From contig NZ_CDBJ01000043.1 of NCBI RefSeq assembly GCF_000820045.1, positions 223,320 to 287,319 on the forward strand: DNA of 64,000 nt. Reading direction: 5' to 3'. The position numbers and the translations under genes were made by a program. Shown in pieces: positions 35,233 through 43,931 of this stretch. The first letter of the stretch is position 1; each line of letters begins with the position of its first letter. Source of the DNA: Aeromonas rivuli. GTDB taxonomy: Bacteria > Pseudomonadota > Gammaproteobacteria > Enterobacterales > Aeromonadaceae. The notes under the pieces are model-generated. The model did not search any database and was not told where the DNA came from. It saw only the letters and a program-made list of their open reading frames with translations.

Positions 35233-36333
35233 TCAGACCAGGGTGTTGAGCCAATCTCGGCCCCGGGTGTCGGTCGGTGAGGGTTCATCGGCCCAGTCGC
35301 GCCGCCCGGCCAGTACCTCATCCTGAGTCCAGGCCTGACGCCGCTCCTGCTCGCCCCCCTGACCCACATTGACCTCGACCCCACCGGCATGATGGGGTGC
35401 CAGGCTCATGCGCAGCCGTTCCATTGACTGGATAAGGGCGTCACGCACCGCCGGATTAGCCACATTCAGCTGCACACTGAGCTTGTCTCCCTCCATCCGC
35501 ACCGTGAGCTCAAGGCGCCCCAGCTCAGGGGGGTCCAGGCGAATATGAGCCTGCTTTATCTGATGGTTGACCTGCATCTCGACCTTGTCGCGAAGCAGAT
35601 CGGCCAGTTGCTGACCCCATTGAGACTGGTTGTCTGCCAGCTTGGCCGGTGCCCATTGATACTCGGGACCGCGAGCCAGCTGCTGGGTGGTGAGGGTGGG
35701 CACTTGCATCCCTTTCGATTCGACCCCCTCCCCTTTGGGCAGATCCCCCCCCAACGCAGCGATCAGGGCGGGAGGCAAAACGGGTAAGGGACGGGCGGTA
35801 ACGGCTTCACCGGCGCGGGTTGTCGCGGGAGTCTGATGTTCAGCCTGGCTGGCTTGACCGGCCAGATCGGCGAAGGCACCTTGACGCAGCTTGAGCCTCG
35901 CCTGCAGCGTCTCGAATGCGAGCGATGGCACATCCGGCAACAGCGGCCGATCCTCCCGAGTCGAGACAAGTGCCTGGGTTACCTGCGTCGGGCGCGACTC
36001 CACGCTGAAAGTCAGTGTCTCCACCCCGGCACTGCGCCGGGAGAAGCCGCTGCTCGTGGATGCTGTGAAACCAGTCATGGGGTCTTGCTGCAGGAAAACA
36101 GCGAGGGCGGCGGCCAGCGCCTCCTCATCATGGTGACCCTCTTCCGGCGGGGCCTGCTCATTGCCTTGTTCTTGAGGCAGCGTTGGCAAAGGAAGAGGCG
36201 GTACCTCAGCGTGGGGGCTGTCGAGCGGCAGGTAACCCTGTTCGGGCTCCACCGGCTGGCGACTACGAATAGTGCCCTGCTCTGGGGACGCGGCGGCCAG
36301 TGTCGCCTGCTCCAGATGGCGGATCACAGCCAT
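35233..36333 (-). CDS. lafE: Lateral flagellar hook-length control protein LafE (FliK family)
   Basis: Secreted ruler that sets hook length and switches export specificity. The 366-aa protein has a long disordered N-terminal part rich in Pro, Gln and Glu and a C-terminal Flg_hook domain (about residues 240-330: VNHQIKQAHIRLDPPELGRLELTV, LNVANPAVRDALIQSMERLR). It starts inside the last codons of lafX (10-base overlap). Confidence 0.92.
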   Translation of the reverse strand: MAVIRHLEQATLAAASPEQGTIRSRQPVEPEQGYLPLDSPHAEVPPLPLPTLPQEQGNEQAPPEEGHHDEEALAAALAVFLQQDPMTGFTASTSSGFSRRSAGVETLTFSVESRPTQVTQALVSTREDRPLLPDVPSLAFETLQARLKLRQGAFADLAGQASQAEHQTPATTRAGEAVTARPLPVLPPALIAALGGDLPKGEGVESKGMQVPTLTTQQLARGPEYQWAPAKLADNQSQWGQQLADLLRDKVEMQVNHQIKQAHIRLDPPELGRLELTVRMEGDKLSVQLNVANPAVRDALIQSMERLRMSLAPHHAGGVEVNVGQGGEQERRQAWTQDEVLAGRRDWADEPSPTDTRGRDWLNTLV

Positions 36334-36662
36334 GACTGCACCTCGTCATAGGCTTGCATCCCTTCGTGCCCCTGACTGAGTCGTTGCCACTCTTGCTGAC
36401 GGGTCTCCAGCTCGGCCCGGCACTGGGCAAGCGCCTCGCCATGCCAGGCTTTGATCTGCTGACGGACAGGCTGCAGAGCCTGCCAAAGGGAGGGCGAGTT
36501 CGCCAGTGCGCCGCAAAACTGTGCCAACCGCTGATCGGTCAAGCGCACCGCATCCCACTGACCGGCCTGGGCCTGCTGTTGCAACTGACGACCCAGAGCC
36601 AGCAGCTGGCGCTGGCGAGTCTCATACTCGATGCCGGGTATCGATGGCTTTTTGACGGGCAT
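36324..36662 (-). CDS. lafX: FliT-like flagellar chaperone (LafX/LafD)
   Basis: Small 112-aa alpha-helical protein in the position of the FliT-type chaperone of lateral systems. It starts MPVKKPSIPGIEYETRQ at 36662 (AAGG 8 bases upstream), and is rich in Gln, Arg and Leu with amphipathic helices. It probably escorts the LafB cap protein or affects regulation; sequence similarity to FliT is weak by eye, so the call rests mainly on gene order. Confidence 0.65.
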   Translation of the reverse strand: MPVKKPSIPGIEYETRQRQLLALGRQLQQQAQAGQWDAVRLTDQRLAQFCGALANSPSLWQALQPVRQQIKAWHGEALAQCRAELETRQQEWQRLSQGHEGMQAYDEVQSWL

Positions 36663-36787
36663 GGCAAGGGCCTTAATGAGTGGTAGCACATAGCCACTAG
36701 CAAGGAGTGGGCCATAAAATAAATAATAATTATCAATGAATTAGGATGTCGACATGGGAATGGCGGGAAGTGCTGCTTCCGCCTGCT
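36663..36787 (-). promoter_or_regulatory. AT-rich gap between lafC and lafX, possible internal promoter
   Basis: This 125-base gap is far more AT-rich than its neighbours (an AATAAATAATAATTATCAATG block on the plus strand). On the minus strand a hairpin GGCGGAAG/CTTCCCGCC follows the lafC stop, then TCGACA and TATTAT lie about 18 bases apart. This resembles a terminator-plus-promoter arrangement for lafX-lafE-lafF-lafS-lafT-lafU, but both parts are imperfect. Confidence 0.35.
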
Positions 36788-37219: not shown

Positions 37220-38503
37220 TCACAAAGAACCCATGGTCTGCATCATCTGGTTCATGGTGGTGAATTGATTGAGGTAGCGCTTATACGTGGATTCCATGCG
37301 CCGATCCAGTGCCTCCATCCGCTCGTCCAGACGGCGCTGGTTGTTCTCAAGACCCGTCTTGCGTCCTTTGAGCATCCCATCCCGCTTGGTGTAAGGATCC
37401 ATGGCGTTACTCATCCGCTTGAGCAGACCATCATCCCCCATCAATGCCTTGCCAAGCAGCTCGGGGTCCTTCTCCAGCGCCTTGTTGAAGTCAGTCTCGT
37501 TGAACGCCAGCTTGCCCGCCTTATCCGTCTTGATCCCCAAGCTATTCAGGGTCAGGCCATTGGGCAGATCCCGTACCTTGGCAGCCAGCAGGCTCTTGAG
37601 ACCGCGCACCCCACTGTCCGAGGCAAGGGCTCCCGGCGCCTTGGGATCGCTGGCGGTCATCTTGGCCAACTCGCCCACCAGCTCGTTGTAGCTGTCGACA
37701 AACTGCTTGAGGGAGCCGGTCACGGCCTCGGTATCTTGACCAATGGTGACCTGCATCGGGGGATCCCCGGCCGCCTGCACCTTGGTCAGCTCCAAAGTGA
37801 GACCATCGACCACATTCTCTATCTTGTTGCTGGCAGAGGTGATGGTGAGCGGGCTATCCCCCCCCATCCGCAACTTGGCATCCTGCGCCTTGGTGATGTC
37901 GGTGCGAGCCGCCAGCGCAGTGGCGAAGGCACTGGCCGGATCGCCGCTGTAACTCAGATTGATGACGTTCTCCTCCCCCGTCTCCTTGCCGGTCAGTACC
38001 AGGTTGACCTTGCCATCGGTGCGCACCAGGGTCGCCTTGATCCCGGGGTTGTCCGTGGCATTGTTGATGTGGGAGACCAGATCCTTGACGGTCGCCCCCG
38101 CCGGCAGGGCGGCCAGGTCCACGTTCATGGTCTTGCCCTTCACCGCCAGAGAGAGAGTGCCACTCGCCGGCAGGAGATCCGTGTCGCTGTCGAGCTGCAC
38201 CCCCAGCTGATGAGCCTGAGCCAGCTGCTCGACGAAGAAACTGTATTGACCCGAGCTCGCCTTGCCGTTGCTGGTGACCGTCATGAAGCCCTCCTGGGAC
38301 ATGGTCGCCTTCTGGGCCTGCAAGGTGGAAGCCTTGTTCAAGTCCTTGAGCATGGTCTGGAAGGTGGAGAGCTTGGTGTTGAGCGCGCTCAACGCCGTCT
38401 GCTGCCCCTTGACGCTCGCCATCTGGCGATTGAGCAGGGCATCCATGTTCTGACGCTCGGCGGCAACCAGCTGAGAGGCCATGGAGGAGGGATCTATCTG
38501 CAT
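37220..38503 (-). CDS. lafB: Lateral flagellar filament cap protein LafB (FliD family)
   Basis: Secreted cap that folds incoming flagellin at the filament tip. The 427-aa protein has the N-terminal D0-like helix (DPSSMASQLVAAERQNMDALLNRQ), central FliD domains and C-terminal coiled region (LENNQRRLDERMEALDRRMESTYKRYLNQFTTMNQMMQTMGSL), as expected. It lies downstream of lafA1 and its terminator. Confidence 0.95.
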   Translation of the reverse strand: MQIDPSSMASQLVAAERQNMDALLNRQMASVKGQQTALSALNTKLSTFQTMLKDLNKASTLQAQKATMSQEGFMTVTSNGKASSGQYSFFVEQLAQAHQLGVQLDSDTDLLPASGTLSLAVKGKTMNVDLAALPAGATVKDLVSHINNATDNPGIKATLVRTDGKVNLVLTGKETGEENVINLSYSGDPASAFATALAARTDITKAQDAKLRMGGDSPLTITSASNKIENVVDGLTLELTKVQAAGDPPMQVTIGQDTEAVTGSLKQFVDSYNELVGELAKMTASDPKAPGALASDSGVRGLKSLLAAKVRDLPNGLTLNSLGIKTDKAGKLAFNETDFNKALEKDPELLGKALMGDDGLLKRMSNAMDPYTKRDGMLKGRKTGLENNQRRLDERMEALDRRMESTYKRYLNQFTTMNQMMQTMGSL

Positions 38504-38622: not shown

Positions 38623-39489
38623 TTAACGCAGCAGGGAAGTGACCATGCCAGTCATCTGGTTGGAGTTGGAGAGCACGGACATGCCAGCTTGCATCAGCAT
38701 CTGGTTCTTGGTCATGTTGGTGGTCTCCTGGGCGAAGTCGGCATCCATGATGCGACCGTTCGCCATGTCGGTGTTCTCTTTCATGTTGGAGAGGTTGTTG
38801 ACCGTGTGCTCCAGACGGTTGATGTTGGCACCGAACTGGGAACGGGCGGTACCGATGGCGTCCAGGGCATTTTCCATCTCGGTGATTTGCGTATTGAAAT
38901 CGGTGGACTTCAATACGGTAGCGGCCACATCGGCGTCCTTAAAAGCAGTTTCAGCATCATCGATAGCTTTGTTCACTGCTTGAACATTGGTGCTGGCATC
39001 AACATCAAGTTTCTCCCCAGCAGTGCCACCGATCTGGAAGGTCACGGCGGCAGCACCAAACTTGCCAGCATCGCTGATTAGGGCCTGGCCGCCAAACTTG
39101 GTGTTGTCGCTGATGTTTTTCAGCTCGGCGGAGAGCTCCTTCATCTCGGCACCGATGGCCAGACGATCGTCATCATTGGTGGTGCCGTTAGCGCCCTGGG
39201 TGGCCAGATCCTTCATGCGCTGGACGATATTGGTCATCTCGTCCATCGCCCCTTCGCCAGTCTGCATCATGGAGACGGCATCCTGGGCGTTGCGCATGCC
39301 GACCTTCTGGCCGTTGGACTGGGCCTGCAGGCGGGTGGCCATCTGCAGACCGGCGGCATCATCGGCGGCGGAGTTGATGCGCAGACCGGTGCCCAGACGC
39401 TGCATGGCGGTGCCCAGCATCTTGTTGGTGGTATTGAGCTGGCTCTGAGTGGTCAGAGAGGCGAAGTTGGTGTGAATGGACAAACCCAT
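38623..39489 (-). CDS. lafA1: Lateral flagellin LafA1
   Basis: Filament subunit of the lateral flagellum. The 288-aa protein has conserved D0/D1 ends ([19 protein letters not shown] and the C-terminal [19 protein letters not shown]) and a short variable central part, about residues 160-215. It is almost identical to LafA2 outside that part. The start at 39489 is set by the flagellin N-terminus and the AGGAG upstream. It ends before a strong terminator. Confidence 0.96.
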
Positions 39490-39660: not shown

Positions 39661-40521
39661 TCAACGCAGCAGGGAGGTGACCATGCCGGTCATCTGGTTG
39701 GAGTTGGAGAGCACGGACATGCCAGCTTGCATCAGCATCTGGTTCTTGGTCATGTTGGTGGTCTCCTGGGCGAAGTCGGCATCCATGATGCGGCCGTTCG
39801 CCATGTCGGTGTTCTCTTTCATGTTGGAGAGGTTGTTGACCGTGTGCTCCAGACGGTTGATGTTGGCACCGAATTGGGAACGTGCGGTACCAATGGCGTC
39901 TAAGGTATCTTCCATCTTAGTGATTTGAGCATTGAAGGCCGTAGCAGCGAGGGCAGCCGTATCGGCAGTGCCAAAGTCTGCTGTAGCAGTTGTGATGGTT
40001 GCATTCACAGCTTTAACATTTGCACTGGCATTCACATCAAGTTTCTCACCAGCAGTACCACCTATCTGGAAAGTCACGGCAGCAGCACCAAACTTGCCAG
40101 CATCGCTGATCAAGGCCTGGCCGCCAAACTTGGTATTGTCACTGATATTTTTCAACTCAGCAGTCAATTCCTTCATCTCGGCACCAATAGCCAGACGATC
40201 GTCATCATTGGTGGTGCCGTTGGCACCCTGGGTGGCCAGGTCCTTCATGCGCTGGACGATATTGGTCATCTCGTCCATGGCGCCTTCGGCGGTCTGCATC
40301 ATGGAGACGGCATCCTGGGCGTTGCGCATGCCCACTTTCTGGCCATTGGACTGGGCTTGCAGGCGGGTAGCCATCTGCAGACCGGCGGCATCGTCGGCGG
40401 CGGAGTTGATGCGCAGACCGGTGCCCAGACGCTGCATGGCGGTGCCCAGCATCTTGTTGGTGGTATTGAGCTGGCTCTGAGTGGTCAGCGAGGCGAAGTT
40501 GGTGTGAATGGACAGACCCAT
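39661..40521 (-). CDS. lafA2: Lateral flagellin LafA2
   Basis: Second lateral flagellin, 286 aa. The first about 150 and last about 70 residues match LafA1 nearly exactly (visible differences include Ala for Gly in [11 protein letters not shown] and Thr for Ser in [10 protein letters not shown]). The centre differs strongly ([20 protein letters not shown] against [20 protein letters not shown]) and is more AT-rich, with several silent differences beside it. Start ATG at 40521 with AAGGAAACG upstream. Confidence 0.96.
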
Positions 40522-40758
40522 GGTCGTTTCCTTGAGTGAGATGCTGCCGGGCAGCTGATTGGTTGACTCCCTTCAAGAGCGACCGCCCGGCGGTGAAAAT
40601 GAAATGACGGCCGCACTTTTTTAAAATTTTCACCCGCCCCCTGCCTGGGTGCATCGCTTGCCACTTCGGGCACCCTTCTTGCAGTGCGTCGGCCACAGCG
40701 ATCAATACGGGCAGCCGCCCGTGCGATCATGAGGTTCAAGCCACGCAAGGAGATCAGA

Positions 40759-41931
40759 ATGGCCCATACCCTGCTTACCCCCAGGTACTATCAGCAATTC
40801 CAGTGCATCGGCGATCGATGCGAAGACAACTGCTGTCATGGTTGGACCATTTCCATCGACAAGCAGACCTATCGCCACTACGTCAGCCACCCTGATCAAC
40901 TCATCCAGAGCACCGCCAAACAGCATATCCAGAAGGTGAAAAAATCCGATGCTCATTGGGGCACCATCCGCATGGACAAGACGGGAGCCTGCCCCTTCCT
41001 CGACGGAACAGGATTGTGCAATGTCCACAAGCAGGCGGGCCCCGAAGCCCTCAGCCAGACCTGCAAGAGCTACCCCAGGCAGCAAACCCAGTTGGGTGAT
41101 CAGCACAGGCGCAGTCTGATGCTCTCCTGCCCCGAGGTCAGCCGCCGGGTGTTGCTCGACCCCCAGGCCATGGCGATGGAGGCGACCCCCTTCATCGGCA
41201 AGGGCAAGCCCAAGGCCATCGCTCCGGCCCAGGCCTCCTTGCACATGTTGAGCATCGATGTGCTGCTGGCCGATGCCATGACGGTGGAAGAGCGGCTCTG
41301 GTTGATTGGCATGCTGGTACACAGAGATGAGAGCAAGGTATCTAACCAGGCCTTCCTCGAGCAGATGGTGCCCATGATAGAGCAGGGCCAACTCGCCACG
41401 GCCTTCGCCCAGCTCCCCTTCATGGGCAAGATCCAGTGGTGGGCGCTGCGCACCCTCACCCATCTGCTGATGCTCAACAACCAGCACCAGCAGCGCCGTG
41501 GGCGCGTGACCATGAGCCGCTGTCTGGAGACCATCAATCGGGTGCTGGAGGGCGAGTATGATGAACACAAACTCGCCAGCCTGCATCAGTGCTGGCATGA
41601 ACGGGTTGCCCCCTTCCTGGCCGAACGACCCCATATTCAGCAGAACCACCTGCTCTATTACGTCTATCACAACCAGTTCCCGGCCCAGGGACAGAGTCCG
41701 CAGCTGGCCTATCGCCTGCTGATCGCGGACTACTTCCTGCTGCGCAGCTACCTGTGCCTGCTGGCCATGGGGGATGCGCCCCTGACCGAGGGGGATGTCA
41801 CGGACCTCTTCTACAGCTATCACACGGTTCGCCAGCACAACGCGACCTTCCTGAGCACCCTAGAGAAGGGGTTGGAAGATTCCGGGCTCGCCAGCGACCT
41901 GACCCTCTACGCCTTGCTCAAGACGGGATAA
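40759..41931 (+). CDS. fliB: Flagellin lysine N-methylase FliB
   Basis: Predicted to methylate surface lysines of flagellin, as FliB does in Salmonella. The 390-aa protein has the Cys-rich N-terminal family signature (FQCIGDRCEDNCCHGWTISIDK, here residues about 15-36 in two pieces) and a second Cys cluster (ACPFLDGTGLCNVHKQAG and QTCKSYPR, about 80-115) likely to bind a metal or iron-sulfur centre. The start at 40759 has AAGGAG. It is transcribed divergently from lafA2, and the likely substrates are LafA1 and LafA2. Confidence 0.88.
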   Translation: MAHTLLTPRYYQQFQCIGDRCEDNCCHGWTISIDKQTYRHYVSHPDQLIQSTAKQHIQKVKKSDAHWGTIRMDKTGACPFLDGTGLCNVHKQAGPEALSQTCKSYPRQQTQLGDQHRRSLMLSCPEVSRRVLLDPQAMAMEATPFIGKGKPKAIAPAQASLHMLSIDVLLADAMTVEERLWLIGMLVHRDESKVSNQAFLEQMVPMIEQGQLATAFAQLPFMGKIQWWALRTLTHLLMLNNQHQQRRGRVTMSRCLETINRVLEGEYDEHKLASLHQCWHERVAPFLAERPHIQQNHLLYYVYHNQFPAQGQSPQLAYRLLIADYFLLRSYLCLLAMGDAPLTEGDVTDLFYSYHTVRQHNATFLSTLEKGLEDSGLASDLTLYALLKTG

Positions 41932-42008: not shown

Positions 42009-43013
42009 TCAGGCCAGCAGGGCCACCACATTCTGGCGGGAGACATTGGCCTGGGCCAACAGGCCCGCCATGGTACCGGCAAAACCGCCATCCTTGAGCT
42101 GGCTGCTCAACTTGCTTTGCAGCTGTTCCAGCTCATCGAGCTTGAGACTCTGGCTGCGGGATTTCACCTTGTCCAGCTGCTGGACCATCTTCTGGCGGAA
42201 CTGTTTGAGTTCGCGAACCGACTGCTCTATCTCGCCGAGCAGCTTGTGCAATCTGCGCTGCTCCTGCTTGATCTCACCGCGCCCCAGCCCCTCACCCAGC
42301 AGGCTCAATTGACCAGGGTGCTGCTTGAACTTGACCGGCACCGGGTTACCGGCCGGGATCCGGATCCCTTCACCACTGATGAGGACAGGTTCATCCAGTT
42401 TGCGTCTCTGCGCCTCCGGTAGACTCAGCTCCAGCTTGCCCTGCTCACTCATCCTGGCCTGGATCTGCTCCTTGTTCAGGGCCTGATCCAGCCGCTTGAT
42501 CACCTCTTGTCCCTGGGCTCCCGCCGGAATCAACACTTCCACCGCGCTGTTGCTGACGGGAAAGGCCAGTACCAGTCGCTCGGCCGTCGGTTTGGCCGTC
42601 AGCAGCTCCAGATGATCGACCCCATAATGAACCCGGCTGCCCGCACCATTCAGCAACCTCGGCTTGAGGGCATCCGTCAAGGGGGCATCCTGACTGGTCA
42701 GTTTCTCTTCGAGGGTGCGCAGACGCTGGACTATCTCCCCCCCGGCACTCGTGGTCTGCGAGAGCTGCCGCTCCAGGCGCTTGAGCTCGCCCCACACCTG
42801 ACCGAGGGCCTGCTCGCCACCCTGAGCATGGGCGATACGTTGCTGGGCCGTGCCAATCAGCGCCCAACGTTCCAGCCTCGCCACATTGGGGTGACGATCC
42901 ATGGCGACCGGCTGGCGACTCTTATTCTTCCCCTGGACAGATGCCTGACCGCGCAACTTGAGCTGGGCGGGGGCTTCGGCCACACCGCCCGGTCTGGTCT
43001 GCTGGATCTGCAT
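42009..43013 (-). CDS. Coiled-coil protein of the lateral flagellar locus, flagellin-like C-terminal tail
   Basis: I do not recognise a named family. The 334-aa protein is Gln-, Arg- and Leu-rich. Heptad-like helices are visible at about residues 60-115 and 255-310 (EQRRLHKLLGEIEQSVREL, QLDKVKSRSQSLKLDELEQL), with a beta-rich part between. The last residues, GLLAQANVSRQNVVALLA, resemble the D0 tail of flagellins. It follows flgL by 18 bases and is last in the flgB-flgL operon. It could be an exported axial-type or junction protein, or a chaperone partner; this is inference. Confidence 0.65.
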   Translation of the reverse strand: MQIQQTRPGGVAEAPAQLKLRGQASVQGKNKSRQPVAMDRHPNVARLERWALIGTAQQRIAHAQGGEQALGQVWGELKRLERQLSQTTSAGGEIVQRLRTLEEKLTSQDAPLTDALKPRLLNGAGSRVHYGVDHLELLTAKPTAERLVLAFPVSNSAVEVLIPAGAQGQEVIKRLDQALNKEQIQARMSEQGKLELSLPEAQRRKLDEPVLISGEGIRIPAGNPVPVKFKQHPGQLSLLGEGLGRGEIKQEQRRLHKLLGEIEQSVRELKQFRQKMVQQLDKVKSRSQSLKLDELEQLQSKLSSQLKDGGFAGTMAGLLAQANVSRQNVVALLA

Positions 43014-43031: not shown

Positions 43032-43931
43032 TCAGGGAATGTAGTTGAACAGGCTCAGGCCATTGACCTTGGCAAACGCCTGCTGCTGGACCTGAAGAGC
43101 CATCAGCACATGGGCTTGCTTGGTCACCGCCTCGGCATAATCGAGGGACTCTATCTGATCGCTCACTTCCTTGCTATAGATGGTCTTCTCGGCATGGCTC
43201 TCGTCGATCTGGTCGAGCAGATTGATGCGGGCGCCTATGCCGCTCACCATCTGGCTGATCTCATCTTGCAACAGCTGACTGCGATCCAGCATGGCACCCG
43301 CCTCGGCATTGGTATCACCGGTCGAGCTCTCCAGCAGCGTCACCAGATCGTCCAGCTGTTTGAAGAAGTCCCCGCCCTGAATGAAGAGGCTATCGGCGGT
43401 GTGATTGAGGCCGACCGTCACCCCCTTGGCCACCACCACCTCCCGCACCAGGGCATCCCCCTGATAGAGGTAGTTGCCACCCGCATCCTTGACGATGGCG
43501 GTCTTGTCGACCTGACTGCCCGCAAACAGGCTGGAGCCACTCTCGTTGCGGCCATTGGCGAGATCGAGCAGACCCTCCTTGAGCACCGCCAGCTCGCTGG
43601 CAACCGCAGCCCTGTCATCGGGGGACATGCTGCCGGTGGCCGCCATCTGGGTCAGGTCTCGCAACCGCATCAGCATGTTGGTCATGGTGTCGAGCTGCTG
43701 CTCCCCTTGGGATAGCTGGCTCTTGGCATTGAAAATGTTCTTCTGGTACTGGGCCATGGCCGTCTGCTCTTTGTGCAGCCCCTGCAGGCGCACGCTGCCG
43801 ATGGCGTCATCCGATGGCTGCAGGATCCGCTTGTTGCTCGCGATCTGACGATCGAGCCGCGCATAGTCACCGAAGCCCTGTTGCAGGTTGCCGAGCATGC
43901 TGAGCTGGATCTGGTTGGTACTGACACGCAT
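43032..43931 (-). CDS. flgL: Lateral hook-filament junction protein FlgL
   Basis: HAP3, which joins the hook to the filament. The 299-aa protein begins MRVSTNQIQLSMLGNLQQGFGDYARLDRQIASNKRILQPSDDAIGSVRL, typical of FlgL (quoted region residues about 1-50, key SNKRILQPSDD), and has a flagellin-like C-terminal helix. Upstream, between it and flgK, lies an 18-codon remnant of the flgK end. Confidence 0.93.
   Translation of the reverse strand: MRVSTNQIQLSMLGNLQQGFGDYARLDRQIASNKRILQPSDDAIGSVRLQGLHKEQTAMAQYQKNIFNAKSQLSQGEQQLDTMTNMLMRLRDLTQMAATGSMSPDDRAAVASELAVLKEGLLDLANGRNESGSSLFAGSQVDKTAIVKDAGGNYLYQGDALVREVVVAKGVTVGLNHTADSLFIQGGDFFKQLDDLVTLLESSTGDTNAEAGAMLDRSQLLQDEISQMVSGIGARINLLDQIDESHAEKTIYSKEVSDQIESLDYAEAVTKQAHVLMALQVQQQAFAKVNGLSLFNYIP

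Follow-up and report, generated by a model that had tools for sequence, protein, structure and literature searches.

Organization of the lateral flagellar locus

The window analyzed here, a stretch of 64,000 nucleotides from Aeromonas rivuli, carries a lateral flagellar gene cluster in which an intact open reading frame (ORF), here called lafW, follows the gene for the hook-associated protein FlgL. The first-pass annotation had described an ORF of this length and position behind flgL, and both points are borne out by the ORF list and by the TIGR02550 match of the upstream gene. The genes that frame lafW are as follows:

42009-43013, minus strand: lafW-type gene, 334 amino acids, ATG start, intact (ORF list)
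43032-43931, minus strand: lateral flgL (TIGR02550, E = 2e-59, above the cut-off)
40684-41931, plus strand: fliB-type flagellin lysine-N-methylase gene (NCBIfam NF038110, E = 2.1e-83)
38623-39489 and 39661-40521, minus strand: two tandem lateral flagellin genes (Flagellin_N/C)
37220-38503: fliD, downstream (FliD_N, FliD_C)

The direct upstream neighbor of lafW is flgL, with 18 bp between the two genes, and the 334-residue product, LafW, ends in GLLAQANVSRQNVVALLA. Proceeding downstream from lafW, the order is the FliB gene, the two flagellin genes (90% identical, with identical ends), fliD, and then fliS and fliK. The earlier statement that the ORF lies before the flagellin genes is correct in that both of them are found downstream, but it passed over the fliB-type gene, which intervenes on the opposite strand. 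At other Aeromonas loci, one, two, or four flagellin copies (four at locus L055) were seen within the stretch taken. After fliS lies a 121-residue ORF (36324-36689, minus strand) without a family match above cut-off; by comparison, its position is that of the small chaperone LafD/LafX in other lateral clusters. A scan of positions 30001-64000 for sigma-28 sites (up to two mismatches) was uninformative, since all five matches carried two mismatches and none was located directly before a flagellin gene.

Distribution of LafW and its tie to lateral flagella

A scan of genome contigs with the motif G[EQ]G[IVQ]RxPAG[NE], which misses relatives without it (e.g., the E. coli form), yielded 48 named LafW loci from Aeromonas, Oceanimonas, Zobellella, Oceanisphaera, Shewanella, Parashewanella, Ferrimonas, Moritella, Thalassomonas, and Marinobacter, together with one member of the Alteromonadaceae and one unassigned gammaproteobacterium. 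The closest named relative found for A. rivuli LafW is that of Aeromonas bivalvium (87% identical). Two alignments were built: A1 contains 26 members chosen without any motif, and A2 contains 40 sequences, namely A. rivuli LafW and 39 of the 48 locus proteins, leaving out near-duplicates (L045, L046, L049, L050, L052, L056, L072, and L078) and the read-through form L047 described below.

LafW is encoded directly after FlgL in all 48 named loci, and a LafA-type flagellin gene is present further downstream in 41 of them. With the LafW frame taken to start at its first Met, the gap between flgL and lafW has a median of 12.5 bp and amounts to 2-20 bp in 45 of the 48 loci (84-100 bp in the other three); with gaps this short, co-transcription of lafW with flgL is likely. 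A second genome search, in which many species overlap with the 48, placed FlgL upstream of LafW in 40 of 41 loci. At the exception (L039, genome G261), the upstream gene is not flgL but a ParM-type plasmid segregation gene (L039:1-549, PF21523, E = 1.9e-37).

At E ≤ 0.01, LafW relatives were detected in 34 of 295 genomes of the order, the weakest match (E = 0.00785 over 45 residues) being probably due to chance, and in 19 of 37 Aeromonas genomes. Within Aeromonas, the genus to which the co-absence comparison applies, these 19 are exactly the 19 genomes with a lateral-type FlgL (E ≤ 4.7e-52); in the 18 genomes that lack LafW, the E-values of FlgL matches do not go below 4.5e-22. A single genome (G029) is divergent, and it is so in both LafW and FlgL (34% and 40%, respectively). 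Across the class, 369 genomes were sampled, A. rivuli itself and at least three others of the same order among them, and three gave matches: A. rivuli, a locus with FlgL upstream (L092), and a short coiled-coil match (L093). The last was counted as chance, matches to FlgK, FlgL, and LafA being absent from the 3.2 kb taken around it. The synteny with flgL and the co-occurrence with a lateral-type FlgL support the lateral-flagellar membership proposed at first pass, and A. rivuli LafW is a genuine and conserved protein, specific to lateral flagella, from a family already known.

Identification as the counterpart of E. coli LafW

Judged by its sequence relationships, the A. rivuli ORF is the counterpart of LafW of the E. 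coli Flag-2 system, which one paper lists as a “putative hook-associated protein” and as a flag-2 marker absent from flag-1 (PMC6993521). Profile A2 matched E. coli LafW at E = 1e-7 (probability 94%), and the protein of an intermediate locus (L041) matches it at 2e-47. Direct BLASTP of A. rivuli LafW against E. coli LafW returned nothing significant, and E. coli LafW was likewise absent from the results of a genome search with the A2 HMM at E ≤ 1e-4. Both proteins share a position between flgL and lafA and the same kind of tail, whereas the E. coli form is without the GEGxRxPAGNP motif. When the intermediate gene was searched against E. coli genomes, 1260 of 5426 gave some match, with an 84-base piece matched in those listed; one such match viewed in context has flgL and lafA on either side and carries the annotation “flagellar hook-associated protein.” Since the E. 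coli Flag-2 homolog already bears a name, the first-pass description of the ORF as unassigned reflects a gap in naming and no longer stands. In the literature searched, mostly papers available without subscription, LafW is named but no functional test of it was found.

Predicted fold of LafW

An AlphaFold2 model of LafW was computed from 40 sequences (mean pLDDT 68.9) and consists of a coil at residues 1-43, two helix pairs, a beta domain at residues 127-227, and two short tail helices. Combined with conservation and profile matches, it divides the protein as follows:

42888-43013, minus strand: residues 1-42, variable, proline-rich, predicted coil (AlphaFold2, conservation, proline content)
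42699-42887, minus strand: residues 43-105, D1 N-terminal helices at 44-86 and 91-105 (AlphaFold2, profile match to flagellin D1-N, VIA)
42333-42635, minus strand: residues 127-227, beta domain resembling Flagellin_IN (AlphaFold2; PF07196 in relative L059)
42342-42374, minus strand: residues 214-224, GEGIRIPAGNP motif, a common family signature (21 of 26 A1 members)
42093-42272, minus strand: residues 248-307, D1 C-terminal helices at 248-288 and 292-307 (AlphaFold2, VIA)
42012-42083, minus strand: residues 311-334, flagellin D0-C-like tail, L..QAN..R....LL (alignment, tail profile)

The long helices predicted at residues 44-86 and 248-288 agree with the long coiled coils read from the sequence earlier. 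Invariance of the GEGIRIPAGNP motif in A2 is partly a product of selection, the loci having been gathered with that motif.

Structure comparison returned flagellar axial proteins. With the LafW model as the query, flagellins filled the first 12 rows of a Foldseek search (E = 3.0e-8 to 9.4e-6), followed by FliD, FlgL, and further flagellins; whole-length agreement in the first 12 rows was poor (TM-scores 0.19-0.32, rmsd 17-27 Å), which leaves the D1 helices as the basis of the match. VIA-align can align parts of a structure; it spanned model residues ~35-296, and its first five rows gave rmsd values of 2.3-3.8 Å over 132-146 residues with Z-scores of 10.8-11.0, a range (Z 10-11) below the tool’s caution level for helical bundles of about 13. 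Among its best 50 rows, 48 were flagellar axial proteins and the last two were IpaD. In profile searches against the PDB, A1 found flagellins in the first 14 rows (best E = 8.8e-5) over two collinear stretches, whereas the wider profile A2 reached flagellins only at E = 0.011, with a coiled-coil construct ranked first. Local hhalign of LafW against the lateral LafA and FlgL profiles gave nothing.

At E ≤ 0.01, A. rivuli LafW matched no Pfam family, including Flagellin_IN, Flagellin_N, and Flagellin_C, and the latter two were also not in the list of 16 families obtained for the 40 A2 members at the same threshold. Flagellin_IN (PF07196) was matched above its gathering score in the relative L059 only (E = 3.4e-8). 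The remaining Pfam and NCBIfam matches, to coiled-coil families, were taken as chance because they fell below the cut-off where one is listed and differed between members. The fold of LafW is therefore predicted to be a flagellin D1 helix pair with an inserted Flagellin_IN-like beta domain.

A conserved tail and an unusual N-terminus

The first-pass annotation had likened the end of the protein to the D0 tail of flagellins and had named homologs that lack it as grounds for refutation. Across the family the resemblance holds up and exceeds chance: a loose tail pattern, composed after the alignment was seen, fits all 40 members of A2 and 24 of the 26 in A1. Residues 311-334 are also the most conserved region measured, with a mean pairwise identity of 0.54 in both A2 and A1, compared to 0.47 for the next-best region (residues 201-230, A1). 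A tail-only profile built from 24 sequences was searched against 177,635 PDB sequences, and flagellins took ranks 1-3 (E = 0.41, 0.62, and 1.4, each weak), with matches that end at residue 281 of 281, 286 of 286, and 280 of 282; the fourth and last row was a beta-glucuronidase.

The N-terminus presents the opposite picture. Residues 1-42 of LafW occupy the position of the flagellin N-terminal D0 helix without resembling it. They are predicted as coil by AlphaFold2, whereas an equally deep FlgL control is predicted to form a helix at residues 5-31. In this control, the helices at 5-31 and 268-293 have pLDDT values under 50, and N-terminal pLDDT is under 50 in both the LafW model and the control. 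By itself, the low pLDDT of LafW residues 1-41 is no sign of a missing D0 helix, the FlgL control being equally low; the argument rests instead on the predicted helix, on conservation, and on proline content. Pairwise identity in A2 is 0.25 for residues 1-20 and 0.13 for residues 21-42; the corresponding values in A1 are 0.39, derived from 156 of 325 pairs that are mostly near relatives, and 0.14. FlgL taken from the LafW loci has an identity of 0.45-0.50 over its first 42 residues, which are conserved like the rest of that protein. Three or more prolines occur within the first 40 residues in 29 of 40 LafW sequences, in none of 39 FlgL sequences, and in none of 53 LafA sequences (a count that omits 3 of 56 whose start was not recognized), and the mean number of prolines there is 3.65 in LafW versus 0.97 in FlgL.

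From these data, LafW appears to lack the N-terminal D0 helix found in flagellin, FlgK, and FlgL. Taken with the fold matches, the predicted coil, the conservation, the prolines, and the tail profile suggest a protein composed of a flagellin-like D1, a Flagellin_IN-like insert, and a D0-C segment without D0-N. The refutation envisaged at first pass, a predicted structure without D0-like helix pairing, applies by half: the model has a D1 helix pair that matches flagellin, but no D0-N helix is predicted and a D0 pair is not seen. Residues 1-42 are a possible export signal; the better conservation of residues 1-20 relative to residues 21-42 in A2 would suit a short signal of this kind and weakly favors export.

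Compared to the flagellins FliC and LafA, LafW thus has a predicted D1 helix pair, an inserted beta domain, and a D0-C-like tail in common, and it differs in having neither a predicted D0-N helix nor a match to Flagellin_N or Flagellin_C; the PAGNP motif is its own, as is a conserved tail Arg. FlgL (HAP3) resembles LafW in its adjacent gene and its D1 fold (2d4x, Z 9.9, rmsd 2.7 Å over 124 residues), but its N-terminus is conserved and predicted to include a helix, and in the 48 loci the two proteins are encoded by separate genes.

Possible roles in lateral flagella

In Aeromonas, Shewanella, and other bacteria, lateral flagella drive swarming and attachment to surfaces, and the standard flagellar parts list derives from systems without lafW. 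Deletions of the lateral genes flgL2 and flgH2 have been described in Shewanella piezotolerans WP3 (PMC5178100). The gene order flgK-flgL-lafW-lafA parallels the hook-to-filament order of the parts. Taken with the observed co-occurrence, the synteny with flgL, the conserved tail, the predicted D1 fold matches, and the annotation of the E. coli family member, this order leads us to give about an even chance to the reading that LafW is an exported axial protein of the lateral flagellum, likely present in few copies at the hook-filament junction, where it would act as an adaptor for lateral flagellin. Under this scheme, lafW would be expressed together with the hook and hook-associated proteins, and LafW would leave through the type III apparatus of the lateral flagellum, following FlgK and FlgL and preceding or accompanying the first lateral flagellin. 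A few copies would then be placed on or beside the FlgL layer and would form the adaptor at which lateral flagellin assembly starts. More generally, the structural or export role suggested at first pass is supported as probable by sequence and model evidence.

The lack of a predicted D0-N helix complicates a position at the junction. In Salmonella, the junction consists of 11 FlgK and 11 FlgL subunits, and the D0 domains of FlgE, FlgK, FlgL, and FliC line a continuous channel (PMC12221982). A subunit without D0-N would leave this inner D0 tube incomplete, which weakens the junction reading, and it would have to form a different kind of junction layer. We offer only as a tentative possibility that lateral flagella have a third junction protein, of flagellin fold, whose D0 domain is halved to its C-terminal tail by loss of the N-terminal helix, and which would build an incomplete or short-lived layer between FlgL and flagellin. 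If this is true, a LafW layer between FlgL and the lateral flagellin would be a feature that the textbook flagellum lacks.

The main rival to the junction reading is that LafW remains in the cytoplasm as a flagellin mimic on FliS (LafC) or FlgN, regulating or assisting the export of lateral flagellin. This is suggested by analogy with HP1076 of H. pylori, a FliS partner described as a flagellar protein that resembles flagellin D1 without being a flagellin, which indicates that a D1-like protein can serve in this capacity (PMC7248283). The flagellin segment that FliS binds is the C-terminal D0 part, some 40 residues long (PMC7248283); this is the very part that LafW keeps and its best conserved one, and the rival must be regarded as a real one for that reason. 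The absence of D0-N would likewise suit a protein that does not polymerize. On the other hand, lafW is tied to flgL and not to fliS or to a flagellin gene, and HP1076, compared with LafW by its description, comes from another lineage and has only 171 residues (PMC7248283), which would leave hardly any room for a beta domain and a tail as well. HP1076 was absent among the best 50 Foldseek rows and the 50 VIA rows listed, an absence that excludes nothing. Overall, we consider a cytoplasmic mimic rather unlikely.

It is also unlikely that LafW is exported but acts away from the junction, whether as a minor component of the filament, a factor concerned with length or cap, or a surface adhesin. The flagellin-type tail and D1 fold would suit such a protein, and the FliD of A. 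rivuli also carries Flagellin_IN (E = 1.4e-5). Moreover, hhalign placed LafW columns 160-218 on FliD columns 159-219 (P = 0.0038, probability 8.8%), a match only slightly better than those in the comparison set (reversed FliD, P = 0.029; FlgK, 0.025; FliK, 0.032). However, fliD is already encoded downstream, and lafW follows closely behind flgL.

Should LafW prove to be an axial protein with half a D0 domain, the hook-filament junction would differ among flagella; alternatively, flagellin mimicry would control export. What is new here is the flagellin-type predicted fold and tail, the strictness with which lafW is tied to flgL, and the predicted loss of the D0-N helix.

Other names for LafW and the slot downstream of its gene

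Maf-5, a lateral motility accessory factor, is reportedly encoded between flgL and lafA in A. hydrophila AH-3. Although the shared flgL-lafA interval and a 349-residue Plesiomonas protein named Maf-5 at the same place (PMC4481668) would speak for it, we reject as highly improbable the idea that the A. rivuli ORF is Maf-5, because A. rivuli LafW has no Maf domain (PF01973), Maf is a separate gene after lafW where it is present (L045, L054, and L056), and the Plesiomonas protein is itself without classical Maf domains according to its authors (PMC4481668). Given its place and size, the Plesiomonas “Maf-5” is probably LafW.

Further labels have accumulated for this gene or its counterparts. One E. 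coli record (H2) names the LafW counterpart FlhF, and lafWZ is called a putative toxin/antitoxin system in one paper (PMC4637896), whereas another locates the toxin/antitoxin system between lafW and lafZ (PMC3032704). In V. harveyi, lafW is entered in a table of virulence-associated genes (PMC6805501). For V. parahaemolyticus, the counterpart may be VPA0275, a positional guess from LfgK being VPA0273 and the cluster ending at VPA0275. The present assignment helps to clear up the use of LafW, FlhF, the toxin-antitoxin label, and probably Maf-5 for one gene or its counterpart.

The interval between lafW and the flagellin genes behaves as a swappable flagellin-modification slot that holds FliB, Maf, or neither. 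FliB occupies it in 13 of the 48 loci; a Maf protein (PF01973) follows LafW in the three loci tested (A. piscicola, E = 1.4e-33; A. enteropelogenes, E = 4.3e-35; A. lacus, E = 7.2e-34), and other loci have neither. In A. salmonicida (L047:5998-8334, also L009), the LafW frame shifts at its last residues and continues into the Maf frame, giving an open frame of 785 amino acids in which the conserved LafW tail is altered; this read-through would be consistent with a decaying lateral system in that species.
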